From a virus: DNA of 64,000 bases. The position numbers and the translations under genes were made by a program. How positions within the stretch are numbered: position 1 is the stretch's first letter; every line of letters starts with the position of its first letter. The stretch spans positions 1 through 64,000 of the IMG/VR virus record IMGVR_UViG_3300003323_000307; one strand, 5' to 3'. Of the stretch, positions 1 to 63,540 are shown one piece after another. Below the pieces are notes generated by a model that saw only the letters and a program-made list of their open reading frames with translations, was not told the DNA's origin and searched no databases.

Positions 1-2346
1 GTATGGAGTGCTATTCAAACCGCTGGTACAGCTGTTTGGGGAGCTATCCAGGCAGCAGGCTCAGCCATCTGGGGTGCTATCCAGGCTGCTGTCACGGATA
101 CTTCGGGCGCCATTGACGCTCGGGGTAGAGCTGTTTGGGGAGCTATCCAGGCAGCAGGCTCAGCCATCTGGGGTGCTATCCAGGCTGCTGGTACGGCTAT
201 TTGGGGCGCCATTCAGGCTGCGGGGAGCGCGATTTGGGGAGCTATCCAGGCAGCAGGCTCAGCCATCTGGGGTGCTATCCAGGCTGCTGGTACGGCTATT
301 TGGGGCGCCATTCAGGCAGCAGGCTCAGCTATATGGTCGGGAATTCAAGCTGCCGGTACTGCTATTTGGTCAGGTATCCAGGCAGCGGGGACAGCGATCT
401 GGTCAGCCATTCAAGCTGCGGGAACTGCTATTTGGAGCGGCATCCAGGCTGCTGGTACAGCAATTTGGAGTGGTATTGAATCAGCAGGTACAGCCGTATG
501 GAACAATATTGCTTCTGCTGCTAAATCAGCTTTCGAGGGCGTAAAGAGCACTATTTCAGATATTTTCAAGGGAGATATTTTTGGTGGCGGAGCTGGGAGC
601 ATCTTTGATAAGATCGGAAGTCTTTTCGGGGGTAAGGGCCAGTCTCTAGCAGGTGTCCGTGATCAAGGGGGTGGAGGCGCGGGTGCATTTGCTGGAATTG
701 CCCAAGGTATCCAGCAGGCCATGACTCAAGCCCAGGCAGCCGTTACCACGGGCATGGCTCAGATTCAGTCCACTATCACTACTGCTATGGCAGCAGTAAG
801 TACCGCGTTTACCACAGGTACTACTTCATGGACTACTGCTATCACCACTGCTATGACCTCAGTGGGTACTGCTATCACCACCGGTACTACCACATGGACC
901 ACATCTATCACTACAGCCATGACTGCTGTTAGCACGGCTATCACAACTGGTACCACCACGTGGACTACATCTATAACCACGGCTATGACAGCAGTTGGTA
1001 CTGCTATCACTACAGGCACTACCACATGGTCCACGTCCATTACTACAGCTATGACGGCTATCAATACTGCCATCACTACTGGTACTACTACCTGGTCCAC
1101 CACCATTACAGCCGCTATGACCGCCGTCGGTACTGCTATTACTACTGGTACAACTACTTGGGCTACTTCCTTCAATACTGCCTTTACAGCAATTAATACT
1201 GCCATCACTGTTGGTACTACCACTTGGACTACCACCATCACAGCAGCTATGACTGCTGTAGGTACAGCCATTACCACGGGTACCACCACTTGGGCAACTT
1301 CATTTAATACTGCGTTTACTGCCATTAATGCCGCTATTACGGTTGGAACCACAACGTGGACCACCACTATTACTGCGGCAATGACGGCTGTAAGTACGGC
1401 TATTACCACAGGTACTACAATGTGGGCGACTGCATTTACCACGGCTTTCGTAGCCATTAATGCCGCTATTCTGGTGGGTACTACCACGTGGACCACAACG
1501 ATCACTACTGCTATGACAACCATGGCCACAGCAGTAACCACAGGAATGACCACCATCTCTACAGCTGTAACTACTGGTATGACAGCTATCTCCACTGCAT
1601 TCACTACCGGCTGGACTACGGTCACTACGGCTGCTACGACTGCCATGACTCAGCTGACCACCCAGGTCACACAGTCTATGACTCAGATGACTCAGGCTGT
1701 GACTCAAGGAATTCAGCAAATGGTTCAGGCTATGCAGCAGGGTTGGCAGCAGATGACCCAGGCTGCTCAGCAAGGCGTGCAGCAGATGGTCCAAGCCGTT
1801 CAACAGGGTGGTCAGCAAATGGTTCAGGCTTGTCAGCAGGCTGTCCAGCAGGCCGTAGCCGTACTGCAAGCTGCTGTAGGTCAGTTCCAGGCTGCTGGTG
1901 CTGCAATGGGCCAGGCTCTAGCCGCAGGTCTTCAGAGCCAGGTAGGTGCCGTTGCTGCGGCAGCACAGAGTCTGGCAGCTGCTGCTCGTGCTGCAATGCC
2001 GGGTTCCCCGGCCAAGGAGGGTCCGCTCTCCGGTCGCGGGTACTCACTGTACTCCGGTATGGCCATGGGTGAGGACTTCGCTCGTGGTATTCGTAGGCAA
2101 GAGGCTCTTATCAGTTCCGCCTCAAAGGGTATCGCTGGACGTGCGGCAGGTGGACTGAACATCAATGGAACTGTAGCCCCCCGGACCACTGCACCAGTGA
2201 CCATCTCGAACACTGCTAATGCAGCACCATCCGGCAGTGTCTACAATTTCGATTTCTCAAACGCTGTGATCACAGGCGGTCAGAAGCAGATCGAGGACAT
2301 GGTCCTACAGGCCATGAAGAACGCAGAGCGTAAGGGCAGGCGGTAA
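1..2346 (+). CDS. Tape measure protein, 3' part (5' end outside window)
   Basis: Open from the first base in frame 1 to TAA at 2344, so the protein is truncated by the window edge and continues upstream. It sets tail length and is part of the DNA-ejection machinery inside the tail tube. Residues 1-165 are 11-residue repeats of the AIWGAIQAAGS type with a regularly spaced Trp, the classic tape measure pattern. After a Gly-rich linker comes a second array (about residues 255-530) of roughly 22-residue Thr-rich units such as TTWTTxITTAMTAVGTAIT. A Gln/Met-rich coiled stretch (QQMVQAxQQG) and an Ala-rich C-terminus follow. Internal ATG codons (for example 721) are unlikely starts because the frame is open and repetitive on both sides. 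The ATG of the next gene overlaps the TAA by one base. Confidence 0.93.
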   Translation, partial: VWSAIQTAGTAVWGAIQAAGSAIWGAIQAAVTDTSGAIDARGRAVWGAIQAAGSAIWGAIQAAGTAIWGAIQAAGSAIWGAIQAAGSAIWGAIQAAGTAIWGAIQAAGSAIWSGIQAAGTAIWSGIQAAGTAIWSAIQAAGTAIWSGIQAAGTAIWSGIESAGTAVWNNIASAAKSAFEGVKSTISDIFKGDIFGGGAGSIFDKIGSLFGGKGQSLAGVRDQGGGGAGAFAGIAQGIQQAMTQAQAAVTTGMAQIQSTITTAMAAVSTAFTTGTTSWTTAITTAMTSVGTAITTGTTTWTTSITTAMTAVSTAITTGTTTWTTSITTAMTAVGTAITTGTTTWSTSITTAMTAINTAITTGTTTWSTTITAAMTAVGTAITTGTTTWATSFNTAFTAINTAITVGTTTWTTTITAAMTAVGTAITTGTTTWATSFNTAFTAINAAITVGTTTWTTTITAAMTAVSTAITTGTTMWATAFTTAFVAINAAILVGTTTWTTTITTAMTTMATAVTTGMTTISTAVTTGMTAISTAFTTGWTTVTTAATTAMTQLTTQVTQSMTQMTQAVTQGIQQMVQAMQQGWQQMTQAAQQGVQQMVQAVQQGGQQMVQACQQAVQQAVAVLQAAVGQFQAAGAAMGQALAAGLQSQVGAVAAAAQSLAAAARAAMPGSPAKEGPLSGRGYSLYSGMAMGEDFARGIRRQEALISSASKGIAGRAAGGLNINGTVAPRTTAPVTISNTANAAPSGSVYNFDFSNAVITGGQKQIEDMVLQAMKNAERKGRR

Positions 2347-21551: not shown

Positions 21552-21905
21552 GACTCAACTCACCCAGCTCGTTTGTGAAGTAGATGTCTCGAATACCAAC
21601 CGAGTGTATCAATTTCATACAACGGCTGCAAGGCCGCGATAGTGCGGGTTCTCCTGCGTTGTTCACACGGGCTACATAGATGCTACAACCCTTCAGTGAA
21701 CTGGTAATAGACGCCTCCGGATTACCATCTCTTCAGCATGGTGGGTAGCTCCGTTGTGATCGATGAACGGGTCACAACGGAACACATTCGTTTCTACTTC
21801 GAGGAGCCTAGAACCTCGGACAAGGCAGCAGCCGTGTTTCCAACGGTGATTGCTGCTTTGTGCAGCCCGGAGAGCAATACTGATAAAACGGTCTTGCCTG
21901 CCCAT
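21520..21905 (-). pseudogene. CMP/dCMP-type deaminase with a frame break
   Basis: The first frame (21905 to about 21720) gives the deaminase N-terminus with the zinc/proton motif HHAEEMVI. It then runs into a stop at 21693. The -1 frame continues the fold as EASITSSLKGCSIYVARV, then the second zinc motif SRPCSRCMKLI, and ends at 21520. One base is missing around 21714-21720 (CGGAGG). Either a real inactivating mutation, a sequencing error, or a frameshift. A separate intact dCMP deaminase exists at 35134. Confidence 0.72.
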
Positions 21906-22693
21906 AGGAAGCCCTTAACAATTCGCTTGATGCCGTCTGTGACTTCTGCTGCTATATCTCGTACCCAGGCTAAGACTTTGTCAAACATATCCGGACCTTC
22001 TGATTCATCGTCAGGTAGTGGTTCTGTGAGCTTGGCGATCACAGCAGGATCGCTGTAGACATCCACGCACGTTGTACAGTTGGTCTTGCAGGGAGATCCG
22101 TCTTCGAGAGGGAACCGGCACCAGAAGGCCAGCTCGAACAGCTCTCTGGGCATGTCTGCCAGGATCTCCGTCTTGGTCATCTCCTGCAACGGACGTTCGA
22201 TGGTGATGTTCCTGCGACGGGCGCAGATGTACATCATCCGGGTCCGAGCCTTGATTACTTTGCCGTTGGGGTACTTGGTGGAAGTGTCACCGACAATGTT
22301 CCAGTATGCAAGGCGAGTGATCCAGGGCCTTGCCCGCAGGATTGTTCCGGCCATAGCCATAACAATCTCGGGGTCACGCATTCTCTGCATATGAGGGGCT
22401 GGGGGTAGAACCGCAGCAGAGTCAATGTACTCGTAGTTCGTCAGTCCTTGCTTGTCGAACCAGGAGAGAACTTTTTCAACTGCCTGCGACTCATAACGCA
22501 TTCTATGACGGCTAGTGAGGTGGCAGTGGTGAATGAGGACTCGTTCACCAGCAAGGAGGAGTTTGTAAGTACCGTAAACGGAATCAATACCACCTGAAAG
22601 ATTAGATAAAACAGTATGAGTCTGGTCAGCGTCATTGAATTCCCGGTTCTTGAGGAGGTATTTTCCTCCAAGCTCCCACTCATTGTGAGACAT
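21794..22693 (-). CDS. PP-loop ATPase, QueC-like, with C-terminal amphipathic extension
   Basis: 299 aa. N-terminal PP-loop SGGIDSVYGTYKLL (adenylation of the substrate by ATP), and a Cys cluster WCRF...SPCKTNCTTCVD that matches the zinc site of 7-cyano-7-deazaguanine synthase (QueC). Residues about 228-299 are an extra amphipathic/hydrophobic tail absent from QueC. No FolE, QueD or QueE is seen in the window, so substrates would come from the host or from outside the window. A nucleobase- or DNA-modification role is the main idea. Confidence 0.75.
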   Translation of the reverse strand: MSHNEWELGGKYLLKNREFNDADQTHTVLSNLSGGIDSVYGTYKLLLAGERVLIHHCHLTSRHRMRYESQAVEKVLSWFDKQGLTNYEYIDSAAVLPPAPHMQRMRDPEIVMAMAGTILRARPWITRLAYWNIVGDTSTKYPNGKVIKARTRMMYICARRRNITIERPLQEMTKTEILADMPRELFELAFWCRFPLEDGSPCKTNCTTCVDVYSDPAVIAKLTEPLPDDESEGPDMFDKVLAWVRDIAAEVTDGIKRIVKGFLWAGKTVLSVLLSGLHKAAITVGNTAAALSEVLGSSK

Positions 22694-22891: not shown

Positions 22892-23032
22892 ATTTCACGC
22901 TCTCTAAAGGGTTTCTGCACTTCAACCGTATACATTTTCGGTGTGCAGACTTCCTTTAACACTTTACCGTTTCTCTTCAGGTGTAATGCCGATGTATAGC
23001 GGCGAACGGACGCGGCGTGATTGCGTAACCCG

Positions 23033-23106
23033 TGGACCTACGGGGATTCGAACCCCGAACCTACTGCGTGCAAAACAGTCACTCTTCCAGTTGGAGTTAC
23101 AGGCCC
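23033..23106 (-). tRNA. tRNA-Ala (anticodon TGC)
   Basis: 74 nt canonical cloverleaf: acceptor GGGCCTG/TAGGTCC with G3-U70, D arm ACTC/GAGT, anticodon stem ACTGT/GCAGT with loop TTTGCAC, T arm CGGGG-TTCGAAT-CCCCG. No encoded CCA. The acceptor stem is nearly identical to that of the tmRNA-like element 140 bp away. Confidence 0.9.
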
Positions 23107-25250: not shown

Positions 25251-25715
25251 TTAATGCTCATGAGTATGCCCATCTTCCTGAGCCACCTTGAAGGTGACCG
25301 TCTGGTCCGCCGACTTCTGGAAGTCGAACGTGATGGTGGTAGTCTGCCCCACCTTAAGGTGGCCCTTGAGGTTGATCAGCATCACATGGGGTGTACCCGT
25401 GAAGACCACTTCAGAGCGCTTGGGGAGTGGTACGGAGTCCAGCTTGACCATCTTCCCGGACTCAATGGTGTGCAGCTCAGCAGAGACCGACGTGGGGCTT
25501 GAGACAGCTAGGAGAGTGTCATTGGCGGCGCCCTTGTTGATCACCTTCAGGGTGGCGTACGTGTCCTTCCCCTTGTGACCCGTAACTACGAATCCAGGCC
25601 GCACTGTGAGGTCAGGCTTAGGGTCACTTCCGGAGTTGAAGAACAGGTACCCCAGAACGGCCAGAGTAATGGCTATCAGGATGATGATGTACTTCTTGTA
25701 CTTGTCAGACTTCAT
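25251..25715 (-). CDS. PCu(A)C-type periplasmic/extracellular copper chaperone
   Basis: 154 aa. N-terminal membrane anchor at residues 7-26, then a beta-rich domain. The four Cu(I) ligands expected for the family are visible: His in SAELHTIESG, Met in SGKMVKL, and an HVM pair 20 residues later (GTPHVMLINL), followed by a typical LKVGQTTTITFDF. The His-Met spacing is shorter than in most members. The C-terminus is His-rich (EDGHTHEH). In bacteria this family delivers Cu(I) to cytochrome oxidase. ATGA overlap with the HNH gene upstream. Confidence 0.82.
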   Translation of the reverse strand: MKSDKYKKYIIILIAITLAVLGYLFFNSGSDPKPDLTVRPGFVVTGHKGKDTYATLKVINKGAANDTLLAVSSPTSVSAELHTIESGKMVKLDSVPLPKRSEVVFTGTPHVMLINLKGHLKVGQTTTITFDFQKSADQTVTFKVAQEDGHTHEH

Positions 25716-26155
25716 AGCCTGGACCTTCTGACCCTCTCATTTTGGTTATGGCATTCTCTGCAAGAACGCCAACCTGTCTTTGCTTTGTAGGTGTTGCTAT
25801 CAGAATACTTATGACCCTTAGGGCACACTAGCTTAATCTTATTGTAATTCCTATTTCTAGTGTCCCTATCGGCTGCGTTATCCTTAGAAGTACCTATTTC
25901 CAAGTGGGCAACAGCAATACAGTTCCGGACATCACATTTATGACGAACTACCATATTGTCTGGGATAGGGCCGTAATGTAATAGATACTGCAACCTGTGA
26001 GTAAGATACCTCTTTTTATTTACTTGTATTTGGCCATAGCCATTTTTAAGTTGAGTGCCCCTCCATAGCCGACAACTTCCTGACTTTATGCTCCTAGAGA
26101 ATAGCTTCTCTTTAGCTATAGTCTGCTGCTGGGTCGTAAGGTTCAAGGTCTCCAT
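25712..26155 (-). CDS. HNH homing endonuclease
   Basis: 147 aa. HNH core: GYGQIQVNKKRYLTHRLQYL, VVRHKCDVRNCIAVAHLEIG, with a C-terminal CPKGHKYSD ... CRECHNQ zinc knuckle. Its start overlaps the polymerase 3' end by 44 bases out of frame, and its stop overlaps the copper-chaperone start (ATGA), so it is closely embedded between the two. Confidence 0.85.
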   Translation of the reverse strand: METLNLTTQQQTIAKEKLFSRSIKSGSCRLWRGTQLKNGYGQIQVNKKRYLTHRLQYLLHYGPIPDNMVVRHKCDVRNCIAVAHLEIGTSKDNAADRDTRNRNYNKIKLVCPKGHKYSDSNTYKAKTGWRSCRECHNQNERVRRSRL

Positions 26156-28058
26156 AAGTCGGTCCCAATTCTACGTCCACTGCAAAAGGTGTATCACTCT
26201 CAAAAGGGGGGGTTGTCATGGTCTCACACATGTATGCAATGGCCTCGTGGATGAACTCCTTGCGAACATTGGCCACCAGTGAGTCATGAACTGACAAGAT
26301 GATACGCCCCCAGCCCCTCTCTTGCAATCCCCAGTGAACTTTGATCAAGGACGAGAGGCACAGATCAGAAGCCATGGACTGTCCAGGGAAGTTGACAGCC
26401 TGGTTGTTTACCTTGTTGTAGTTGTCCTTGGTGATGAGATTCCAGCGTCGTTTACGGCCAAGCTCAGTGGTCAGGAAGAACTGACTATGAGCCTGTTCCC
26501 GCCATTCGTCACAGCACATTTTCCATGTGGAGTACATGTTCCAGAAGGTGTCAAGGAACTCTTGAGCCTTGTCAGGGTCCCCACCTGTGGCTGCTTCCAT
26601 TGCAGGATCAAGGGACAGCTTGAAACCAGAGATACCATAGCCTGCGCCGAAGTTGACTGACTTCACTGACTGACGTTCTGTCGGTGTAACCTCTGACGCA
26701 GGCTTGTTGTAAACCTCTGCTGCAAGAGCAGTATGGACATCCCATTCCCCTGTGAGGTTTTCCAGAAGTACTGGGTCCCCTGTAAGGTGATGGGCAATGA
26801 ACATCTCCAGAGACTTATAGTCAATGTTTACGATGAGATGTTCATCATCGTCTGCCATAAACAGACGCTTTACCGCTTTAGAGTTTTGGCTATACTTAGG
26901 TACAGTTTGCATCGCAGGATCGTGAATCGCAATACGACCTGTTTTCGTACCGAAGAGTAGGAAATTCGGATGTACTTTCCCGTCTTCAGCCACGAACTTC
27001 TGCATTCCCTCCAAGAAGTTTCGACGTAGATACTGTAGTTCTTTGTACTCAGCAACAAGCTTGGCCAGAGGATGATTACCGTTATATTTCCAAAAATCTT
27101 TATTCGTTGTGTTTTTAGGTTCATGTGGCAAACCCTTCATGTTCAGAATATCGTAGCACAAATGCTGCATCTGTTCTGAAGAGTTCACATTAAGAGTTAC
27201 ATCAACCTCAGTTCGGTATCGCTTGTCTGAGCAGCGCTCACAAGTATCGAGAGTCGCACCAGATTCTCTAAGTCGTTTAGCGTACGACAGGACTCGTAGT
27301 CCGTCCAGGAGTCCGTGGTGTTCTTCAGGTACGCACTCACAGATGACCTTGTAACGTCGGCCAATTCCGGAGTCAGGTCGGGGGAATCCCACGGATGCGG
27401 CATAATCCTGAACATTCTTGATTGCCTCCTCGATCTTGGGGAGCCATTCGGCTGAAGTGGTACGGGCATACTCTACATCACAGCGCATACCCTGGTATTC
27501 AATGTCGGCAAAAGCAGCCTGGGCAGGAAGGAGGATCTCCTTGACGGCTTTCCAGGTCCCCTCCTTTGTGACACGCTTGGACAGCACGGGGAGGAGCCCG
27601 TAAGTGTAGAAGACGTCCTTGCAGCCGTATTCAGCCAGAACATCCGGGCGGATATGGCCGAAGTTCCACTTCTTCTTGTCCGTGTCCAGCCACTCTTCAA
27701 GGCCCTCTTCATAGAACGGGGCGTCGAGGTCCTGGCGGGAGCGGTATTTCAGACCTACCTGGCGGGCCTTCTCTGTGGTTCCCAGGGCCAGGCACATGGT
27801 GTCCACACTGCGTTCATCTACAGAAACACCCAGCCAATGCTTCACCATCTTGGCATCATGTTTAACGTTATGCCATACAAACCTAGCATTGGGGTGGTTA
27901 AGGAGCCGCTGTACTAGAGGCTTCACACGGGGGTCATTGATGACACCCCAGTTGAATGCATACGCAATTGCACCGTCGTAGAGCTGCAACATAGTCAGAC
28001 TGTGGAAGGGGTTTAGGTCAAAAGACTCTGTGTCAGCCGCGAAGATTTTTTCTGGCAT
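26112..28058 (-). CDS. DNA polymerase I (family A) with 3'-5' exonuclease domain
   Basis: 648 aa from ATG at 28058 (MPEKIFAADTES). Exonuclease Asp/Glu in AADTES; palm motif A NIDYKSLEMFIAHHL; motif B RQSVKSVNFGAGYGISG; motif C SVHDSLVA (usual HDE replaced by HDS). A Cys4-type insertion (CEC ... CERCSDKRY) lies between the exonuclease and the palm. No 5'-3' exonuclease domain. This is the replicative polymerase. Its first five codons overlap the 3' end of the upstream HNH gene. Confidence 0.93.
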   Translation of the reverse strand: MPEKIFAADTESFDLNPFHSLTMLQLYDGAIAYAFNWGVINDPRVKPLVQRLLNHPNARFVWHNVKHDAKMVKHWLGVSVDERSVDTMCLALGTTEKARQVGLKYRSRQDLDAPFYEEGLEEWLDTDKKKWNFGHIRPDVLAEYGCKDVFYTYGLLPVLSKRVTKEGTWKAVKEILLPAQAAFADIEYQGMRCDVEYARTTSAEWLPKIEEAIKNVQDYAASVGFPRPDSGIGRRYKVICECVPEEHHGLLDGLRVLSYAKRLRESGATLDTCERCSDKRYRTEVDVTLNVNSSEQMQHLCYDILNMKGLPHEPKNTTNKDFWKYNGNHPLAKLVAEYKELQYLRRNFLEGMQKFVAEDGKVHPNFLLFGTKTGRIAIHDPAMQTVPKYSQNSKAVKRLFMADDDEHLIVNIDYKSLEMFIAHHLTGDPVLLENLTGEWDVHTALAAEVYNKPASEVTPTERQSVKSVNFGAGYGISGFKLSLDPAMEAATGGDPDKAQEFLDTFWNMYSTWKMCCDEWREQAHSQFFLTTELGRKRRWNLITKDNYNKVNNQAVNFPGQSMASDLCLSSLIKVHWGLQERGWGRIILSVHDSLVANVRKEFIHEAIAYMCETMTTPPFESDTPFAVDVELGPTYGDLEPYDPAADYS

Positions 28059-28491
28059 ACCAATCCCTTTGAGCTTTCTTCCTACACTCACTACATCTGC
28101 GGTTACGACGAGTCTCAGCTAACTTGTGGATACCCTTTTTGCAGTATTCATATTCTCTACCTGCATTAGAGGGAGCCCGGCCCCGGGCGTACATATCCTG
28201 TAGATTCTCAGCTTGTGTGCCCAGCTCCAAATGACTAGGGTTCACACACGGGGGGTTGTCACAACGGTGACGGACAACTAGCCCTTCGGGTATATTTCCA
28301 AAATGTAGTACCCAAGAAAATCTATGAGCTTGCCATATAAAGCCTCCAGCTCCTCCCTCCGAAATTCGACCATACCCTCTACTATTACGACAAGCTAACC
28401 ATACCCAGCAATCATCCTCACCTTGTATATCTACTTTCTCCCAAAACCTAGCCTCTGTAGGTTTATTCTGGCTTCCTTTAGGTCTCCCCAT
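28033..28491 (-). CDS. HNH homing endonuclease
   Basis: 152 aa. EDDCWVWLACRNSRGYGRI, RFSWVLHFGNIPEGLVVRH, CDNPPCVNPSHLELG and a C-terminal CSECRKKAQRDWYARKN. It overlaps the glycosylase gene upstream (14 bases) and the polymerase downstream (26 bases). Its YARKN codons in another frame are the start codon and first residues (MPEKI) of the polymerase. Confidence 0.87.
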   Translation of the reverse strand: MGRPKGSQNKPTEARFWEKVDIQGEDDCWVWLACRNSRGYGRISEGGAGGFIWQAHRFSWVLHFGNIPEGLVVRHRCDNPPCVNPSHLELGTQAENLQDMYARGRAPSNAGREYEYCKKGIHKLAETRRNRRCSECRKKAQRDWYARKNLRG

Positions 28492-29483: not shown

Positions 29484-29920
29484 CTTAAATAGTCCAATGC
29501 CCTCTTCAAATACTCCGGAGAATCTTGAAATAGCCCTAAAGCTCTATTACAACTTCCACATAGGAGCCCTCTAACACAGCTACCACATGAAGATATTCCA
29601 GAGCAACAACTGTGATCATGATCTATAGTTAGCTCCGTTGAAGCTTGGCATATAGCACAAAGTCCTTGCTGAGCGGCCACCATCTCTTGATATTTAGCTA
29701 AACTTAGTCCGTAGCGTCCAGTTATCAGGTTTCTCTTAAATGCCTCTTTACCCTTAGGACTCTCCCTATATCGTTTCGAGCGCTCTCTATCTGCCTCAGC
29801 TTTACAGGGACCACAGTACCGTTTTCTGTAAGGTCTTTCCTTACCGCATCTAGGGCAATTAGGGTCTCTAGGGGGCAACTCTACCGAACTCCGTAAAATA
29901 GGCCATGGCTTGTGGTGCAA
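29480..29920 (-). CDS. Recombination endonuclease VII-type HNH protein
   Basis: 146 aa. N-terminal zinc ribbon (CPRCGKERPYRKRYCGPC), then the EndoVII core GLCAICQ ... LTIDHDHSCC ... VRGLLCGSCNRALGLFQ. Resolves branched DNA in T4; free-standing homing copies are common. The start overlaps the ThyX 3' end by 53 bases, typical of the mobile genes here. Confidence 0.85.
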   Translation of the reverse strand: MHHKPWPILRSSVELPPRDPNCPRCGKERPYRKRYCGPCKAEADRERSKRYRESPKGKEAFKRNLITGRYGLSLAKYQEMVAAQQGLCAICQASTELTIDHDHSCCSGISSCGSCVRGLLCGSCNRALGLFQDSPEYLKRALDYLR

Positions 29921-30569
29921 CTTCCGATGCCAGGGTATCTATTTGTTTGGCAACTTGCTCTATCTCCCATAGAGGAAATGTTGGGGTTTTAGAATTTTCA
30001 TGAGCCCATCTGAGCGACAAAAAATTCATAAGAGACCTGAGATTAAAGTTTACATAGAATGAGGTGTAGATGCTAAATGGCAGATGATCCCGGGCGACCT
30101 CACGGGCAATGCCATCTTGCAGAGCTTCCTGGTACATAGACCAGCCAAAGAGTGCTGTTCGTTTATGGCGTTCTTGCTCCCTCTGTATTTGTGAAGGAGT
30201 TCCTAGTTCAAACGTGTACGCGCCGGGTTTGCCAATTTGCCGTAGTGGACGCTGGGACCCTGGTACATAGAACACCGGCTCAAGTTCGCGGTACCTTCCT
30301 GAGGTTTCGTTATATGAGGCGATCCTGTGCCTGAAGAACTCTCGGGCAACGAATATAGGGCAAGAAACTTTAAACTGCAACACTGGTGATTCAAATGGAG
30401 AGCCATGACGATCTCGCATAAGCATACGTAAGAGGCCATTATTACTAGCTTCTGTACCCGTAGACCCAGAACTCACACGGGCAAAACGAACTATAGACTC
30501 ATCTCCACCCATACTGTCAACAAGCTCAACATCCATGTCGGACTTGAACGTCACTTCAGACATGGTCAC
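29868..30569 (-). CDS. thyX: Flavin-dependent thymidylate synthase
   Basis: 233 aa. The ThyX signature RHRIASYNETSGRYRE is intact at about residues 80-95; the N-terminus has VRFARVSSG and the C-terminus LRWAHENSKTPTFPLWEIEQVA. Makes dTMP from dUMP with folate and FAD. ATG at 30569 overlaps the upstream stop; an alternative start is two codons in. Confidence 0.93.
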   Translation of the reverse strand: MTMSEVTFKSDMDVELVDSMGGDESIVRFARVSSGSTGTEASNNGLLRMLMRDRHGSPFESPVLQFKVSCPIFVAREFFRHRIASYNETSGRYRELEPVFYVPGSQRPLRQIGKPGAYTFELGTPSQIQREQERHKRTALFGWSMYQEALQDGIAREVARDHLPFSIYTSFYVNFNLRSLMNFLSLRWAHENSKTPTFPLWEIEQVAKQIDTLASEVAPQAMAYFTEFGRVAP

Positions 30570-33019: not shown

Positions 33020-33826
33020 TTAACTACCCTTCTTCATCATTCGAATGATGCCCTCTAGATCCGGATTGTCCAGGTGCAGAGGCACCTGCTTACCAGTCTT
33101 GGGCTGCCGAAGCTTCGGACCCTCCACCCTTCGCGGCGGGGTGAAGTAAATCTCCCGATCTTCGGAGTTCTTTTTGCGGTTCATATAACCGACGTGATTC
33201 ACAGTCAGAAGGATCTGATTCCGAATACCCTGCGGCAATGCCAGCCGGACATTCGTGATTTCCTCGTCCTTCTCCTCAAGAGTGTGACCTGTGAAGATGG
33301 TATGGATACCATACTCACAGAGGCTCTTGGCATCCCGGACGAACTTCGTCATCTCCTTCTGTGCTTCGAAGTAGAGCTGACGTGCGTCCTTTGCTGAGGC
33401 CATCTTCCGCTCGATCATGGGGAACAAGAGTTCATAGTAGATCGAGGAGAGGGAGTCGAAACCGTACACCTTGTACGGGCTGTTGTCCTTGAGAGCCAGA
33501 GCTGTATCCAGATAACCCCGGAGTTCCTGCCAGGTGAGCTGACGGGAGATACCCTCTGTAGGCTGGCCGTTGGCAACAGCTTCGAGGTACTTGGGGGGCT
33601 CAGCGAAGTGAACATCCATATCAAGGATGGACTCACGGCCGATGTCCGTATCGAACAGCAGAACCTGGTTAGGGTACAGCTTGGCTGCTGAGGCAAGGAA
33701 GGTCGTCTTGCCGATGCCCGGGGGAGCGAAGACGACCATGTTGATACCGGTAGCGGCAGCGTCGTCCTTGACGCTGCGGAACTGGGGGAAGCTAGCTCCC
33801 AGAGGAGCCTTCCGCTCGATTGGCAC
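33020..33826 (-). CDS. RecA-fold ATPase (Sak4-like)
   Basis: 268 aa. Walker A APPGIGKTTFL at about residue 34, VLLFDTDIG, Walker B-like VYGFDSLSS, then IFTGHTLEEKDEE and a C-terminal tail. Single-strand annealing/recombination ATPase of the Sak4 group. Start overlaps the exonuclease 3' end by 35 bases. Confidence 0.85.
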   Translation of the reverse strand: MPIERKAPLGASFPQFRSVKDDAAATGINMVVFAPPGIGKTTFLASAAKLYPNQVLLFDTDIGRESILDMDVHFAEPPKYLEAVANGQPTEGISRQLTWQELRGYLDTALALKDNSPYKVYGFDSLSSIYYELLFPMIERKMASAKDARQLYFEAQKEMTKFVRDAKSLCEYGIHTIFTGHTLEEKDEEITNVRLALPQGIRNQILLTVNHVGYMNRKKNSEDREIYFTPPRRVEGPKLRQPKTGKQVPLHLDNPDLEGIIRMMKKGS

Positions 33827-34925
33827 GATATTCCTCCAGTGTCCTCTGGAGATCCTCCAGGGAAGCTATGTTGGTGGGGGTGATGCCCCTGACGGCTTGC
33901 TGTGTCCCGTATGTACCCACTTGGTACCGCTGTGAAACCAGGAGTTCTACATCGTCGTCACGATCCATGGCGGTGCAGAGGTCAGAGACGAGGCAGCGGT
34001 CACAGGCAGAGCGGTTAGGGATGATGCCTGGTTCACTACCACTAAAGGCTTCAGCGACCACCTGATCCAGAACATCGCGCTCCCAGTTGACAAGTTCAAC
34101 CAAGGTGGGACGGAAGATCTCGCGCACGAAGAAACGAGAGTCTCCAGACTGTTCACGGTCATGCAGCATGGTGATGTAGTCGGTGTACTGTACTGGGTCA
34201 TGATTGCCGTAGTTCAGTGCTTTCATGAAGGACTTGTAAGTGACAGAAGCGTTCTTGTCCACTGAGAGCTTACCGCTCTTCAAGACCCTGGGCTCTGTGA
34301 TCAGCCTCTTCATGATGATGTTATAAACCGTACCTGCTGGTTTCTGCCCTGTCAATACCGTGAACGCCCAGTTGTAGCCTATGTGCTGATTACTGCGTTC
34401 GTACTGGTTGAAGTCAGGTGTACGGCCAGAGGTCTTGTTCTCGATGAGGTAGAACTGAGACTCTGTTTCCAGGTCTACGGCGATGTGGTCAAAGGTGCCT
34501 ACGAAGTTGACGTCGTCTGAAATCCTGATATTGAAGGGAACCTCAGAAGCTACTATTCGAAGACCTAAATCTTTATAGGGGTTTTCGGTTCCATAATGAT
34601 CAAAATACTGGTGTACAAGGCTTCGTGCCAGGTTAACACCAGATTCAAACTCTTCCATTTCAGAGTCCCACGGGAGGACTCCCACAGCTTCCTCATAAGC
34701 CATCCGTCGATCTGCCCGCTCAACGTTGACAAATTCTTCGAAAGCTTCATACGGGTCGTCCCCATTACTCTGCGCTTCGATTGCAGCATGTACAGCCGAG
34801 CCAATCGTGAGGTAAATCTTGGGGGAGACTTTGTGCCTCAGAGACTGTCGGTTCGCTGAACTGATATCCCACGCCCGGCGACATGTCAAGTAGCTGTTGA
34901 TTTCGCTGACACTCAAATTGATCAT
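33792..34925 (-). CDS. PD-(D/E)XK nuclease, RecB/Cas4-type with iron-sulfur Cys
   Basis: 377 aa. Motif order: YLTCRRAWDI (first Cys), GSAVHAAIEA, core GTFDHIAVD ... YLIENKTSG (D-x-ExK), QHIGYNWA (QxxxY), and a distal Cys triad CDRCLVSDLC. This is the Fe-S exonuclease layout of AddB/Cas4 proteins. Probably the end-resection nuclease paired with the Sak4-like ATPase. Confidence 0.87.
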   Translation of the reverse strand: MINLSVSEINSYLTCRRAWDISSANRQSLRHKVSPKIYLTIGSAVHAAIEAQSNGDDPYEAFEEFVNVERADRRMAYEEAVGVLPWDSEMEEFESGVNLARSLVHQYFDHYGTENPYKDLGLRIVASEVPFNIRISDDVNFVGTFDHIAVDLETESQFYLIENKTSGRTPDFNQYERSNQHIGYNWAFTVLTGQKPAGTVYNIIMKRLITEPRVLKSGKLSVDKNASVTYKSFMKALNYGNHDPVQYTDYITMLHDREQSGDSRFFVREIFRPTLVELVNWERDVLDQVVAEAFSGSEPGIIPNRSACDRCLVSDLCTAMDRDDDVELLVSQRYQVGTYGTQQAVRGITPTNIASLEDLQRTLEEYRANRAEGSSGS

Positions 34926-35004: not shown

Positions 35005-35147
35005 CAGGGGTTCAGAGCTGCTTCCAGTTTGGTCTTGAGAGCATCCATGCGGGTTATCTCCAGCCTGGTCATATCTACCCAGGTGTAGGCAGCTACAGCT
35101 TCCTCAAGAAGCTCCAGCTCCTCATCTGTGAAATCAAGGGCACACAA
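35004..35147 (-). CDS. Small acidic helical protein, TTG start
   Basis: 47 aa. TTG overlaps the end of the dCMP deaminase gene; helix TDEELELLEEAVAAYTWVD. Start assignment is weak, but the frame is tightly packed between neighbours. Confidence 0.45.
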   Translation of the reverse strand: MCALDFTDEELELLEEAVAAYTWVDMTRLEITRMDALKTKLEAALNP

Positions 35148-35520
35148 CTCGGGTTATCCCGCTTTCTTCAATGAACCGGCTGCAATCCGAGCACGGGGCG
35201 AATGTCACATAAATGGTGCAGTCTTCTACTCTCATCCCCCTCCGATGTGCGTCGATGATTGCGTTCACTTCTGCATGGAAACCCTTGCAGTTGCTGTACG
35301 AACCATAAGCAGGAAGTTCATCATATGTCAAGGCCCCCCGAGGACAACCACCATCCGAACAGTTCACCTCACCCGCTTGAGTGCCGTTATACCCAAGCGA
35401 AATGACATGGTGGGTCTCATCCATGATGCACGCGCCTACTTGACGCCTTCGGCAAGCAGCACGGAGCTTGGCTGTCTCAGCCATAGCCAAGCCATACTGG
35501 TCCCATGAGAGACGGCTCAC
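35134..35520 (-). CDS. dCMP deaminase
   Basis: 128 aa. Zinc motifs HAEVNAI and PCSDC in order, with RRQVGACIMDE and a GGCPRG insertion typical of dCMP deaminases. Produces dUMP for ThyX. ATGA overlap with the Pup-like gene upstream. Confidence 0.93.
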   Translation of the reverse strand: MSRLSWDQYGLAMAETAKLRAACRRRQVGACIMDETHHVISLGYNGTQAGEVNCSDGGCPRGALTYDELPAYGSYSNCKGFHAEVNAIIDAHRRGMRVEDCTIYVTFAPCSDCSRFIEESGITRVVCP

Positions 35521-35702
35521 TCACCACCCCGCTGCACGAACCCTGCCACAAACTCTTGGGCATTCTCTTCAAGCACGTCATCTATCTCATCAAGAATATC
35601 CATAGTAGATTCTTCCAGCTCCTCATTACTGAGGTCCTTAGCTTCTACCTCTTCAGCCTCTTCGGTTGTCCCGGTACTCTTGGTTTTCTGGTCCTGGCCC
35701 AT
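35517..35702 (-). CDS. pup: Prokaryotic ubiquitin-like protein (Pup) homologue ending in GGE
   Basis: 61 aa from ATG at 35702 (upstream in-frame codons would add a 38-residue basic part unlike Pup). Residues 1-30 are disordered, rich in Thr, Glu and Lys. The C-terminal half carries the conserved Pup region LDEIDDVLEENAQEFV ending FVQRGGE. In bacteria Pup is attached by PafA to substrate lysines through its C-terminal Glu, often after Dop converts GGQ to GGE; here Glu is already encoded. The coiled-coil part would contact Mpa/ARC and PafA. Located between an HNH gene and dCMP deaminase. Confidence 0.9.
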   Translation of the reverse strand: MGQDQKTKSTGTTEEAEEVEAKDLSNEELEESTMDILDEIDDVLEENAQEFVAGFVQRGGE

Positions 35703-35976
35703 TTGGACCCCAATCTCTTTGATAGCAATAATCACAACCGGAGCACGAGTCAGCTTTTTTCTGGTTGCATACCTTATGTACCAATTGTAGATTACCCGGG
35801 GAAGAGATTCCGCCATGCGACCGTGGGCGGATGTGATCTATGTTCACGGCGTCGGTAAACAACTGTCTCTGGCGGATCTGGCGCCCACATATCCCGCACC
35901 GGTAGCGTTGGCTTATCCACAACCGCTTTTTCGGGTGTACCCAATTCTTAGGCTTCCATTTCTTCTTGCGGCTCAT
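35653..35976 (-). CDS. HNH nuclease
   Basis: 107 aa. CGICGRQI, VNIDHIRPRSHGG, GNLQLVHKVCNQKK: a compact HNH with Cys4 support. It ends 50 bases inside the Pup coding region in another frame and starts 3 bases after the helicase gene's stop. Confidence 0.85.
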   Translation of the reverse strand: MSRKKKWKPKNWVHPKKRLWISQRYRCGICGRQIRQRQLFTDAVNIDHIRPRSHGGISSPGNLQLVHKVCNQKKADSCSGCDYCYQRDWGPNGPGPENQEYRDNRRG

Positions 35977-35979
35977 AGA

Positions 35980-37355
35980 TCATTCGTCCCTCGCCCACTT
36001 GGCCATAGCTTCCGCAATACCGGAGAAACGGCCATCCAGGACTTGCTTGATGGCCATGTCTACTGACCCTTTGGCTCGGACGTGGTGCACCTGCACGACG
36101 CGTCCTTGCCCCCTCCTGCACACCCGTTTAATGGTTTGCTCGATATCGGCAGGTAGTTCGGAGTGTTCGAGGAAGACGACGTCTGTAGCTTCTGTGAGGC
36201 TGATGCCTTCTTTGAGGCTTGGGATGGTCGCGACAAGAACTTGCGGACCATCACTAGCTCGCCATTCTGCAATGACAGATTCACGCCTTCCTGGGAGAAC
36301 GGAACCTGTGACAAGTACCGCTTGGCTGCCCAGAGCATCAGCGATCGCGCCAGCCGAATCTTTATACCATACGTAAACCACCACTTTAGATCGGCGATCT
36401 GTGAGGAAATCTTTGAGCCAATCGATTTTCGGGTTAGCTTTCGTAGGCGGTACAGTCGCAATCTGACGCTGTTTGACATAGAGAGCACCAGAGCCTTTGA
36501 GAAATTCAGTATGTGCCAGATCTTCATGCTCCAGTACATAATCCTTCTTCGCTTTCTTGATCATCTTGACTACCGAGGCAGGCAGCTCCACCTGGTATTC
36601 ATGCTCCTGATATTCCAGGCTGGCTAGCTGCGGGATCTCAGCCACCGTACGACGCATGCTGAACTGGGCAAGCTCTTGCTTGAACTGCTCTACGTAGTCT
36701 TTGCGTATGTTGCCGACTGTGGTTGACCAGGGATTTGTATAGACCACACACCGGTCGTTGACAAATTTCCAGTACGAGGAGTATTTCTTTTTATCGTAAA
36801 GATGAAAATACGGGAAGAAGTCTCCGCCATCACGCACAAACGGGGTACCCGTAAGAACCCAGATGGGTGTTTCCCGGTTACTACTAGCAGATAGTCTCGT
36901 TTTAAAGGTATGCTTCGTCCACGCAGAATTACGGCCACGGAGTCTGTGCCCCTCATCGAAGATGTACGCTGACCACTTACGGCCTACAAGTAGTCCCCCG
37001 TACGTATAGTCTCGACCTTTTTTCGCCGCCCAGTTGTGGTAAGACGTGAGTATGAAATCCGCGTTGCTCGAAAGTGCTTCGCTACGAAGTTCAGTACCGG
37101 ATCCGTCAGCCGATACCACAGTGGCATCCGGGCAGAAGGCATTGATCTCCTTTACGGTATTAGGTATAAGGTACGCTGGGCATGTCCATAGAACTGGGTT
37201 TCCAGTCCTCTGGATAAGTTCCCAACCTGCCATAATACTAGGTCCAGTTTTCCCAACTAAACTCCGGGCTCATCAAAAAGCCCGGCAAACCTCCCTGAGT
37301 TAAGTAGGAAGTCTCTAGACTCTACCTGGTAGTCATCCAGAATTTTTTCTGGCAT
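35980..37355 (-). CDS. SNF2-type helicase, Walker A region interrupted (stop plus +5 shift)
   Basis: The gene starts at ATG 37355 (GGAG 8 bases upstream): MPEKILDDYQVESRDFLL ... LFDEPGV then UAG. Skipping 5 nt from GTT (37262-37260) to the next GTT (37257-37255) restores DEPGVGKT and joins the frame that continues MAGWELIQ to the end; total 456 aa. Further motifs: YIFDEGHRLRG, WVLTGTPF, and helicase C-domain ATIPSLKEGISL with IKRVCRRGQ. The ATG at MAGW has no ribosome site. Either a bypass, a real mutation or a 5-bp duplication error. Confidence 0.75.
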
Positions 37356-37779
37356 AGTAGTTTCTCCAAGCCTCATTTTTGCAGATACGACATTGAGTAT
37401 ACCCATCAGCTCTTGGAGTACTATTTGCTTTGGTGAGAAGGTGGCCCTTTAGACACCGGAATCTTCGGGGTCTACGTTGGCAATTTTCCTTTGGGGTTAC
37501 CAAGTCTAAGTGTCTCGGGTTTACACAGTCCCTATATCTACATTTGTGATCCAATTGCATATTATTAGGCTTGGGTCCATTAAATTGTTCCCAAGAAAAT
37601 ACGTGAGCCTTAACCGATTTCCTGTGATGTACTGCAAAAACTCCATAACCTTGTTGCACTGACCCTAACCAGTGCCAACAGCCTTCAGTCTTCTGGACTT
37701 TACTCCAGAATCTATCTACAGGGTCGGTTAATATAAATCTACCTGAACCATCCCTTGTTGTCACTGACCCTTCTTCCAT
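37333..37779 (-). CDS. HNH homing endonuclease
   Basis: 148 aa. GCWHWLGSVQQGYGVF, VFSWEQFNGPKPNNMQLDHK, CRYRDCVNPRHLDLV, C-terminal CRICKNEAWRNYYARKN. Overlaps the upstream gene (19 bases) and the helicase (23 bases). As with the HNH gene at 28033, its YARKN codons supply the MPEKI start of the next gene. Confidence 0.87.
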   Translation of the reverse strand: MEEGSVTTRDGSGRFILTDPVDRFWSKVQKTEGCWHWLGSVQQGYGVFAVHHRKSVKAHVFSWEQFNGPKPNNMQLDHKCRYRDCVNPRHLDLVTPKENCQRRPRRFRCLKGHLLTKANSTPRADGYTQCRICKNEAWRNYYARKNSG

Positions 37780-48378: not shown

Positions 48379-48852
48379 TCAGAAAGTGATGTTCTCGGAG
48401 AGCTTCCGACGTTCTCGGAGGGTATTACACACCCGGCACTTCCGGTGCCCGTTCGGCCTGATGTACGTGTTGACTTCGTTGTACTCATGCCCATGCGGGC
48501 AATGCGTCTTGTTCTTTTCAGGGTGCCTGCCCCGGCTCGAACAGTCAAGCATGTTCTGTGAGGTGTTACCCAGCTCCAAGTGCTCCGGGCGAACACACCC
48601 AGGGTTATCACACTTGTGTCGGACCACAACCTTGCGGTTGTCATCGTCCACCACTGGAATCGGGCCGAAATGGAGTTCATACGAAAACCGATGAGCCCCT
48701 ATCTCTCGGGGCTTACCGGCTTCCGACACATGCATCCGACCATAGCCGTTGCTGGTCCGATTACCCTCCCACTCCCAGCACTCATGGAATGGGATAAAGG
48801 CTATCGAATTCCAGTACTTCAGAAGGAGACGTTCTCCGAGAGTTTGCGACAT
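48379..48852 (-). CDS. HNH homing endonuclease flanked by a target repeat
   Basis: 157 aa. CWEWEGNRTSNGYGRM, VVRHKCDNPGCVRPEHLELG, CPHGHEYNEVNTYI, CRVCNTLRERR. Starts out of frame within the last 34 bases of the FtsK-like gene and ends in RRKLSENITF, a copy of that gene's own end (CRKLSENVSF). Confidence 0.86.
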   Translation of the reverse strand: MSQTLGERLLLKYWNSIAFIPFHECWEWEGNRTSNGYGRMHVSEAGKPREIGAHRFSYELHFGPIPVVDDDNRKVVVRHKCDNPGCVRPEHLELGNTSQNMLDCSSRGRHPEKNKTHCPHGHEYNEVNTYIRPNGHRKCRVCNTLRERRKLSENITF

Positions 48853-60415: not shown

Positions 60416-60515
60416 GCATGAGTGGGATCTTGCAGACGGGTGTGACTTCTGCGGGGATGATCATTGTCTAGTTGTCTGCCCCTGTGGGGCAGAGGACAGA
60501 GCGTGCGATGAGTGA
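60405..60515 (+). CDS. Very small zinc-ribbon protein between terminase genes
   Basis: 36 aa, CDFCGDDHCLVVCPCGAEDR: six Cys plus His. Overlaps the small terminase end (11 bases) and the large terminase start (8 bases). Found by reading. Confidence 0.6.
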   Translation: MSHEHEWDLADGCDFCGDDHCLVVCPCGAEDRACDE

Positions 60516-61884
60516 CCTCAAGGCTCTCAAGTCTGCCCTCAACCTGAACCTGCCCGACCAGTACGTACCCTGGCGCCCTACCGCTCACCAGTCAGCTTTC
60601 CTCCTTGTGCCCAACCGTGAGGCGTTCTATGGAGGAGCGGCCGGTGGTGGCAAGTCCATTGCTCTTCTTATGGGGGCTCTACAGTACGTGGACCAGCCGG
60701 GCTACAACGCCCTTTTGATCCGACGCACTTTCAAGGATCTCTCTCAGCCTGAAGCTCTAATCGACATTAGTAAAGAGTGGTTGAGTAACACGGATGCAAA
60801 GTGGAACCAGTCCGAGCATAAATGGTCCTTCCCCTCAGGTGCTGTCCTCCAGTTCGGCCATATGGAGAATGAGAACGACAAATACCAGTACCAGGGTGCC
60901 GCATACCACTACGTAGGCTTCGACGAGCTTACCCAGTTCTCTGAAGGCATGTACACCTACCTTCTGTCTCGTGTGCGTCGTCGTACCACGGATCAGTCGA
61001 CTTTCCCCCTGCGGGTCCGTGGGGCAGCAAACCCGGGTGGTGTAGGCCACGAGTGGGTGAAGCGACGGTTCATTGAGCTTCCTGAAGACGATGACGTGGA
61101 CGAGGAGGAGGAGGCCAAGTTTGCAGAGCGAGTCTTCATCCCTTCAGGTTTGAATGACAACCCCCACCTTGACCGTGAAAACTATCGGCAGATGCTTAAT
61201 GAGCTTGACCTAGTCACACGCAAACAGCTGATGAACGGTGACTGGGACATCGCCGGTGACGGCAATATGTTCAAGCGAGAGTGGTTCGACAACCGAATTA
61301 TCACAGAGATCCCCAGAGGGGTAACCCTGCGCCGTATCGTGAGGTACTGGGATCTAGCCTCCACGGACGAAGAGAAGGCTATCAAGGAGAAAGGTGATCC
61401 GGATTACACAGCATCTGTACTCCAAGCTCTGGGGGATGACGGCAACGTTTATATCCTCGAAGTTACTAGAGATCGGTTGTCGCCTGCTGCTGTGGAGCGA
61501 CTGGTTCGCTCAAAGGCAGAACGCGACGGCAGAACCGGAGTCGCGATCTGGATGGAGCAGGAACCAGGAAGTTCCGGTGTCGCCACCATCCACACCTATC
61601 GCAAACTCATGCTCGGATTCAATTTCCGTGGGGACAAACCCTCAGGAAGCAAAATTGAGCGAGCAAGAACAGCAAGCGCTGCATGTGAGAACGGCCTGGT
61701 ATATATTGTTCGGGGAGCCAAAACAAAAGCCTTCCTGAACGAACTGGAAGCTTTCCCTGTCGGTGCTCATGACGATATGGTTGATGCCTTTTCGGGTGGG
61801 CTCATCAAGATATCCGAATCAGCCGATATTGGGAAACCTAGAACTAATAACAATAAGCGCCGTAAAAAGAGCATCTGGGACTGA
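60508..61884 (+). CDS. terL: Large terminase subunit
   Basis: 458 aa from ATG 60508 (an in-frame ATG at 60472 would overlap the mini zinc gene more). ATPase: Walker A GGAAGGGKSIALL, Walker B YVGFDELTQF, coupling motif AANPGGVGHEW. Nuclease: YWDLASTDEE first Asp and C-terminal HDDMVDAFSGGL. Motor that pumps and cuts DNA at the portal. Confidence 0.95.
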   Translation: MSDLKALKSALNLNLPDQYVPWRPTAHQSAFLLVPNREAFYGGAAGGGKSIALLMGALQYVDQPGYNALLIRRTFKDLSQPEALIDISKEWLSNTDAKWNQSEHKWSFPSGAVLQFGHMENENDKYQYQGAAYHYVGFDELTQFSEGMYTYLLSRVRRRTTDQSTFPLRVRGAANPGGVGHEWVKRRFIELPEDDDVDEEEEAKFAERVFIPSGLNDNPHLDRENYRQMLNELDLVTRKQLMNGDWDIAGDGNMFKREWFDNRIITEIPRGVTLRRIVRYWDLASTDEEKAIKEKGDPDYTASVLQALGDDGNVYILEVTRDRLSPAAVERLVRSKAERDGRTGVAIWMEQEPGSSGVATIHTYRKLMLGFNFRGDKPSGSKIERARTASAACENGLVYIVRGAKTKAFLNELEAFPVGAHDDMVDAFSGGLIKISESADIGKPRTNNNKRRKKSIWD

Positions 61885-61932: not shown

Positions 61933-63540
61933 ATGGGCTTGTGGGGTAACATGTGGGGCAGCTCTGGATATAACACTATTCCAGAGTTCACTAATAAGGC
62001 TGCCGAACGCCAGAAGCGCCTAGATCAGTACAAGAAGTCCTGGGAAGCCTATCTGGCTGAACTTCCGGACCCTATCGTTATTGACAGTGCTGCCAATGAC
62101 AACGTCAAAGTCAACCCAGCACGCGCCATGGTCAACACAGGGGTTTACTTCCTGTTTGGGAATGAGCTTAAATTCCAGGATTCCGCTGATGCCGCCCGAC
62201 GGTTCGGGGACCAGCAGACTTCTGATTCATCTTCCCCTAATAAAGATCTGAAAGCTTCTGATCCCACATATCTGCAAAAGCTGAATAAAGCGTGGAAGGC
62301 CAACCGTAAGGGGTCCTTCCTTTTCAATTTAGGGCTTTCAGGTGCTATTCACGGTACCCCCTTTGTGAAGATTCTCCCCAATGCTGCTGGTATAAACAAT
62401 GAATACCCTCGTCTCGTGCTTCTGGATCCAGCTAACGTAGATGTTGAATGGGATCCTAACGACTGCACCAAGGTTCTGAAATACATCATTGAGTACATCA
62501 CAGAGGATGCGAACGGCAAGCCCGTAGTTCGCTCTCAGGAGATTACTGCCAATCAGAACGAGGTTGGTATAATCGAGAGCTGGTCCATGCAGGACTACGA
62601 GCAGTCGATGACGTGGGTTCTCAATACTGGGTGGGTTCCGGTTATGGAAGACCGCACCCCAGTCGGCCCTGAAGAGATCTGGCCTTATTCCTGGGCGCCT
62701 GTCGAGCACTGCCAGAACCTGGAACTGCCTCACATGTTCTGGGGGCTCCCGGACCTGGATGAATCCTCTGTAGAGGTCATCGAGTCCTACCAGCGGGCTA
62801 TGTCCTCCCTGAACAAGATCGTGCGAATCCACGCTTCACCCCGTATGTTCGCCAAGAACGTCATGCCTGACCAGATCACAGACATCGACGTCTCAGCCGA
62901 CAACATCATCACCCTCCCCAACATGGAGGCAGATCTCAACGTTCTGCAAACCCTGGGGAACCTCAGCCCGTCTATCCAGTACACGGACAAGATGATGGCT
63001 GACCTGATGAAGATGATGCAGGTACCGCCGATCGCCCTGGGTGACTTCGAATCGGCCTCGACTGCTATCTCCGGTGTGACACTCTCTATCCTTTATGCCC
63101 CCCTCCTTCAGAAGACCGAGCTCAAGCGGATCTCCTACGGGGACATGATTGAGCGCATCAACCAGAAGATGCTGACCCTCATGGGTTTCGTAGAGGACGA
63201 CTGGGAGAACCTTCTCCTTGTCTGGCCAGAGGCCATGCCTGGTTCGGCTTATCTGGAACGCCAGACTCTCCAGCAAGACCAGCAGATGGGTGCTTCACGG
63301 TACACCATTATGTCTCGTCTTGGTTATGACCCGGTTGAAGAGCAGGGCCACGCGATGAAGGAACAGGAACAGCTTCTGGAACTCCAGAAGAAATATGCCC
63401 CTGAGCCTGCATTTGGTAGTGGCAAGCCCCCGGGTGGTAACAACAACCCTGCCGGGAACGGCAACAAAAACGGCAGCATGGGTGGAACCAAGGCTGCGGG
63501 AACCCCGAAATCTCCTTCGGGGAGCAATCCAACTAAATAG
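61933..63540 (+). CDS. Portal protein
   Basis: 535 aa. SPP1 gp6-type layout: an N-terminal wing (PARAMVNTGVYFLFGNELKF), a stem region LLVWPEAMPGSAYLERQTLQ, and a Gly/Asn/Lys-rich flexible C-terminus. Forms the dodecameric DNA gate where terminase docks. 48 bases after terL. Confidence 0.9.
   Translation: MGLWGNMWGSSGYNTIPEFTNKAAERQKRLDQYKKSWEAYLAELPDPIVIDSAANDNVKVNPARAMVNTGVYFLFGNELKFQDSADAARRFGDQQTSDSSSPNKDLKASDPTYLQKLNKAWKANRKGSFLFNLGLSGAIHGTPFVKILPNAAGINNEYPRLVLLDPANVDVEWDPNDCTKVLKYIIEYITEDANGKPVVRSQEITANQNEVGIIESWSMQDYEQSMTWVLNTGWVPVMEDRTPVGPEEIWPYSWAPVEHCQNLELPHMFWGLPDLDESSVEVIESYQRAMSSLNKIVRIHASPRMFAKNVMPDQITDIDVSADNIITLPNMEADLNVLQTLGNLSPSIQYTDKMMADLMKMMQVPPIALGDFESASTAISGVTLSILYAPLLQKTELKRISYGDMIERINQKMLTLMGFVEDDWENLLLVWPEAMPGSAYLERQTLQQDQQMGASRYTIMSRLGYDPVEEQGHAMKEQEQLLELQKKYAPEPAFGSGKPPGGNNNPAGNGNKNGSMGGTKAAGTPKSPSGSNPTK

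Follow-up and report, generated by a model that had tools for sequence, protein, structure and literature searches.

We analysed a 64,000-nucleotide window, part of a 71,668-base (71.7 kb) virus record from IMG/VR, in which a short minus-strand gene encodes the 61-residue protein MGQDQKTKSTGTTEEAEEVEAKDLSNEELEESTMDILDEIDDVLEENAQEFVAGFVQRGGE (Table 1). The gene, pup, sits within a cluster of the early-gene type that also holds genes for a helicase, a dCMP deaminase, an exonuclease, a Sak4-like recombinase, a thymidylate synthase and a DNA polymerase. Its stop codon and the GTG start of the deaminase gene directly downstream share the letters GTGA, an overlap that suggests translational coupling, and its start shares 50 bases with an upstream HNH endonuclease ORF. 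The GC content of pup resembles that of the neighbouring genes. The terminase large subunit identifies the record as a tailed phage, and endolysin-like proteins are also encoded in the window. The phage-encoded nature of the gene, which had been part of the original prediction, is supported by its place in the early-type gene cluster of a tailed-phage record. The terminase of this phage is most similar to those of methanogen phages (48%), followed by those of Gordonia phages (43%). Elsewhere, the window encodes a QueC-like queuosine biosynthesis protein and a single tRNA. At least four related ORFs match one HNH-endonuclease-like protein of another IMG/VR phage (L002, described below); one of the four is confirmed as HNH (phrog_826), and together they form a multicopy mobile family within the window phage.

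Table 1. Features of the window and of T4-like viral records encoding Mpa/ARC (positions without a prefix are those of the window).
Feature	Position	Strand	Evidence or remark
Tail tape-measure protein	721..2346	+	phrog_305, E 1.4e-24
QueC-like queuosine biosynthesis protein	21794-22693	-	phrog_1550, E 5.7e-20
tRNA-Ala (tgc)	23032-23106	-	only tRNA in window
Related HNH-like ORF	25712-26155	-	matches L002 protein
Related HNH-like ORF	28033-28491	-	matches L002 protein
Thymidylate synthase (PHROG annotation)	29868..30569	-	phrog_85, E 8.8e-61; phage nucleotide metabolism
Sak4-like recombinase	33020..33826	-	phrog_124, E 1.7e-26; replication/recombination module
Exonuclease	33792..34925	-	phrog_1218, E 6e-35; replication/recombination module
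dCMP deaminase	35134..35520	-	phrog_174, E 1.5e-39
pup, prokaryotic ubiquitin-like protein, 61 aa	35517..35702	-	ATG at 35702, TGA at 35517; PF05639, TIGR03687, solved Pup chains, AF2 model
HNH endonuclease ORF	35653..35976	-	phrog_338, E 1.2e-12
DNA helicase	35980..37233	-	phrog_62, E 2.8e-66; early-gene cluster of pup
Related HNH-like ORF	37333-37779	-	matches L002 protein
Related HNH-like ORF	48379-48852	-	matches L002 protein
Terminase large subunit	60472..61884	+	phrog_979, E 1.8e-115
Portal protein	61933..63540	+	phrog_64, E 2.7e-25
Mpa/ARC ATPase	L157:1141-2742	+	T4-like record, GQYL end
Methyltransferase-like protein	L157:14-1129		adjoins Mpa/ARC
Mpa/ARC ATPase	L158:267-1862	-	T4-like record, GQYL end
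Methyltransferase-like protein	L158:1903-2922		adjoins Mpa/ARC
Mpa/ARC ATPase	L160:2870-4471	+	T4-like record, GQYL end

Profile searches bear out the original prediction that the protein is a Pup. It aligns over nearly its whole length with the Pfam Pup profile PF05639 (60.1 bits, E 3.9e-16; cut-off 27 bits) and scores 59.2 bits against NCBIfam TIGR03687, above the curated cut-off of 41.5 bits. Solved Pup chains match as well (for example 3m91_B at E 1.7e-10), and such family matches, for a predicted protein, far exceed chance; in PHROGs, no Pup family was matched. The C-terminus reads VQRGGE and is followed directly by TGA, so that the GGE ending, also predicted originally, is indeed the GG(E/Q) end of a Pup, and the key C-terminal positions of the family are kept. 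In an AlphaFold2 model built from an input that included ten phage sequences (mean pLDDT 74), residues 26-57 form one helix, residues 1-20 have pLDDT values of 53-57 and the tail is free, a predicted disordered N-terminus and helical C-terminal half as expected for Pup. A 99-residue frame starting at 35816 adds no Pup-like sequence and scores lower. Actinobacterial Pup (PF05639/TIGR03687; 3m91_B, 3m9d_G) and the window protein are alike in length, disordered N-terminus and helix, and have in common the DDVLEEN core and the FV..FVQ.GG(E/Q) end; unlike actinobacterial Pup, the window protein comes from a phage gene that has none of dop, prcBA, mpa and pafA near it. Judged by its sequence, the window gene encodes a genuine, phage-borne Pup.

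In bacteria, pup keeps characteristic company. Among 80 bacterial loci, chosen as those most similar to the window Pup, 78 adjoin dop/pafA and the remaining two adjoin prcA. Searches of the 71.7-kb window record for PafA/Dop (PF03136), for 20S-type subunits (PF00227) and for the Mpa/ARC domain (PF16450) gave no match, and the record lacks a complete Pup-proteasome locus (pup with dop, prcBA, mpa and pafA). Within the actinobacteria, Pup occurs in 160 of 396 genomes, nearly always as a single copy; the window Pup scores 58.5 bits, compared with at least 69 bits for the above-cut-off bacterial copies listed from these genomes.

Pup recurs in other phages. Scans of IMG/VR found it in 40 records besides the window's, in one as a partial ORF only, which together with the phage Dagobah makes 41 further viral records. 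When the 41 complete ORFs, including the window's, were clustered at 70% identity with the partial sequence left out, they fell into 19 sequence clusters, so that by this measure at least 19 predicted types of phage Pup exist. Their lengths range from 57 to 82 residues with the N-terminal part kept, and the disordered N-terminus, the helix and the GG(E/Q) end are retained. Six C-terminal positions (L, A, F, Q, G and G) are invariant across the clusters, and I, D, V, E, N and a second V are altered in at most two of the 19. The Pup-bearing records that were checked carry phage hallmark genes: pup is surrounded by T4-like head, sheath and recombination genes in L003, and other records have terminase, portal and capsid genes; around pup in the 174-kb record L004, the only matches are weak ones of tail type. 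PF03136 (PafA/Dop) has no match in any Pup-bearing viral record, including this largest one, and PF00227 has none in the 26 further viral records tested, with the proviso that most IMG/VR records are fragments, so that little can be concluded from a gene missing in a short one. The lack of PafA/Dop suggests that the phages depend on host enzymes. The window Pup has an identity of 0.53-0.56 to its nearest phage relatives and 0.52 to the nearest bacterial ones, values so close that they name neither a donor nor a host. L002, a 98.6-kb IMG/VR phage (3300003322_000423), has much of its replication module in common with the window phage, and its Pup shares the AKDLSNEEL segment with the window Pup. 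Unlike the window Pup, the L002 protein has a GGQ end and extra residues inserted ahead of the core, and its gene lies elsewhere in the module.

Wherever selection on phage Pup could be measured it is purifying, as for a maintained protein. Over the full length of T4-like Pup relatives, non-synonymous change amounts to about 0.1 and synonymous change to 0.6-0.7 per site, and in several pairs the last 28 residues hold 0-3 non-synonymous versus 10-12 synonymous changes. The pair of L006 and Dagobah is an exception, with more change in the C-terminal than in the N-terminal half. These selection figures come from relatives, since synonymous sites between the window and L002 are saturated and give no ratio for the window pup itself.

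Three T4-like viral records also encode the proteasomal ATPase Mpa/ARC, and all three proteins end in GQYL, the motif by which Mpa docks to the 20S proteasome (PMC8223512). Two T4-like records match PF16450, both with Pup on the same contig. The ORFs of 531-533 residues score 586 and 617 bits against the equivalog TIGR03689 (cut-off 505 bits), placing them in the Mpa/ARC family. The T4-like protein aligns almost end to end with Mycobacterium Mpa (7px9), with Walker motifs and GQYL present, and is at most 50% identical to any ARC listed from the 396 genomes. A 98% identical copy lies in a 73.8-kb record that holds no PafA/Dop and no 20S subunits. With pN/pS values of 0.008/0.131 and 0.206/0.793, the phage Mpa/ARC is under purifying selection. 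In the fetched parts of the other Pup-bearing records, a local profile found no ARC. A conserved methyltransferase-like protein adjoins Mpa/ARC in two of the T4-like records.

Pup-Glu is the form used for ligation, and a GGE Pup should need no prior deamidation (PMC8223512). As a bypass of Dop, however, the GGE ending does not distinguish the phage protein: 33 of the 80 bacterial Pups, sampled by similarity to the window Pup, end in GGE and 47 in GGQ. Of the 19 phage clusters, ten have GGE ends, eight have GGQ ends and one mixes the two (L018/L019 versus L022); for an early count of lineages (7:7), an exact test returned p = 0.57. We thus rejected GGE as a phage speciality. In the mixed cluster, the pup genes of L018/L019 and L022 are near-identical, their proteins differ solely at the last residue and the stop codon has changed too; this switch between GGE and GGQ is recent.

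The cultured Streptomyces phage Dagobah (MT711977), a complete phage whose host is Streptomyces coelicolor, encodes HUN42_00036 (QMP84414.1), noted in GenBank as 'ubiquitin-like protein Pup'. Like the window Pup, it ends in GGE and lies in a region of replication genes in a phage with no PafA/Dop; it differs in its 78 residues, with a longer N-terminal part, and in that its host is known. Its terminal VQVGGE would leave a remnant on conjugates unlike that of the host Pup. Streptomyces coelicolor is among the species in a review's comparison of Pup-proteasome loci. A tblastn search with the window Pup against named phages returned zero matches, for which the low-complexity filter and the short query are a likely cause; the Dagobah protein was found with a relative's sequence and a 26-residue core query. 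None of the words 'Pup', 'ubiquitin' and 'proteasome' appears in the Dagobah paper, and a full-text search of open-licence PubMed Central returned unrelated papers and no study of a phage Pup. The earlier impression that no phage Pup had been described therefore holds for studies in that literature but not for the database, where MT711977 is annotated. Another public entry, MT835496 (L025, a human faecal 'Bacteriophage sp.'), was rejected as a phage example; with two PF03136 PafA/Dop genes beside pup, it most likely represents a piece of an actinobacterial chromosome deposited under a phage name.

In the known pathway, PafA couples Pup-Glu to lysine residues, the helix of Pup is the part bound by Mpa, and degradation of the tagged protein begins at the Pup N-terminus (PMC8223512, PMC8599861). 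We consider it probable, though by no means assured, that host PafA ligates phage Pup, which thereby sends selected proteins to the host proteasome for degradation. The phage would probably make Pup early in infection, and host PafA would join its C-terminal glutamate to protein lysines. Mpa/ARC, from the host or probably from the phage itself in some T4-like phages, would then bind the helix, engage the disordered N-terminus and thread the tagged substrate into the 20S proteasome of the host. By raising or redirecting pupylation, the phage could have host proteins removed or recycled, presumably to its own benefit; the targets may be defence or DNA-repair proteins, which is a guess. This degradation reading is favoured by the full-length Pup match, the conserved C-terminal positions, the kept N-terminus and the purifying selection, and also by the lack of PafA/Dop in the phages, the GQYL-ending Mpa/ARC of T4-like records and the S. 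coelicolor host of Dagobah. Against it, the window phage itself is without Mpa/ARC, its terminase resembles those of methanogen phages more than those of Gordonia phages, and a free Pup that did no more than block host enzymes would conserve much the same C-terminal residues. The redirection of host degradation proposed in the original prediction gains indirect support from the selection, the 19 clusters and the three Mpa/ARC records, while ligation itself is a step that we infer.

An excess of phage Pup might instead act as a decoy, occupying PafA, Dop or Mpa and stalling host pupylation or the proteasome with no tagging at all. The missing PafA and Dop agree with this, as does the conservation of phage Pup, which is strongest in the C-terminal half that binds the enzymes and Mpa, and a simple binder could well come with either a GGE or a GGQ end, as is seen here. 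A decoy, however, needs neither a ligatable GG(E/Q) end nor a long disordered N-terminus, and both are kept in 41 of 41 complete phage Pups; the addition by T4-like phages of an Mpa/ARC with an intact GQYL points to productive degradation. On account of these two retained features and of the phage Mpa, we regard a decoy as the poorer fit and unlikely. More improbable still is a regulatory tag, whereby conjugated phage Pup would alter the activity or storage of proteins, for example in hosts with pupylation but no 20S proteasome; some actinobacteria do retain pupylation without proteasome subunits (PMC8223512), but the T4-like phage Mpa ends in the 20S docking motif. That pup is a stray bacterial gene, carried as passive cargo or contamination in a phage contig, is very hard to credit: Pup is common in actinobacteria and MT835496 is evidently bacterial, but every one of the sampled bacterial pup genes adjoins dop/pafA or prcA whereas phage records never hold PafA/Dop, the window pup overlaps the phage genes on either side and resembles them in GC, its relatives are under purifying selection, and a complete cultured phage has the gene.

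Work on pupylation has so far treated it as a pathway of bacterial stress and virulence, and its viral side is not described in the open-licence PubMed Central papers searched. Returning to degradation by the host proteasome, many phage lineages may have adopted a ubiquitin-like route in which their Pup, joined in T4-like phages by the proteasome-docking unfoldase Mpa/ARC, works with the host ligase and 20S proteasome to select the proteins that are broken down in the infected cell, host defences possibly among them; at this breadth we hold the proposal only tentatively, at a little less than even confidence. A recurrent phage Pup, sometimes accompanied by a phage ATPase, would parallel the use of the ubiquitin-proteasome system by eukaryotic viruses. 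Since the cultured phage Dagobah, which grows on S. coelicolor, carries the gene, the role of phage Pup is directly testable, and it could help to explain the purpose of the proteasome in free-living actinobacteria.
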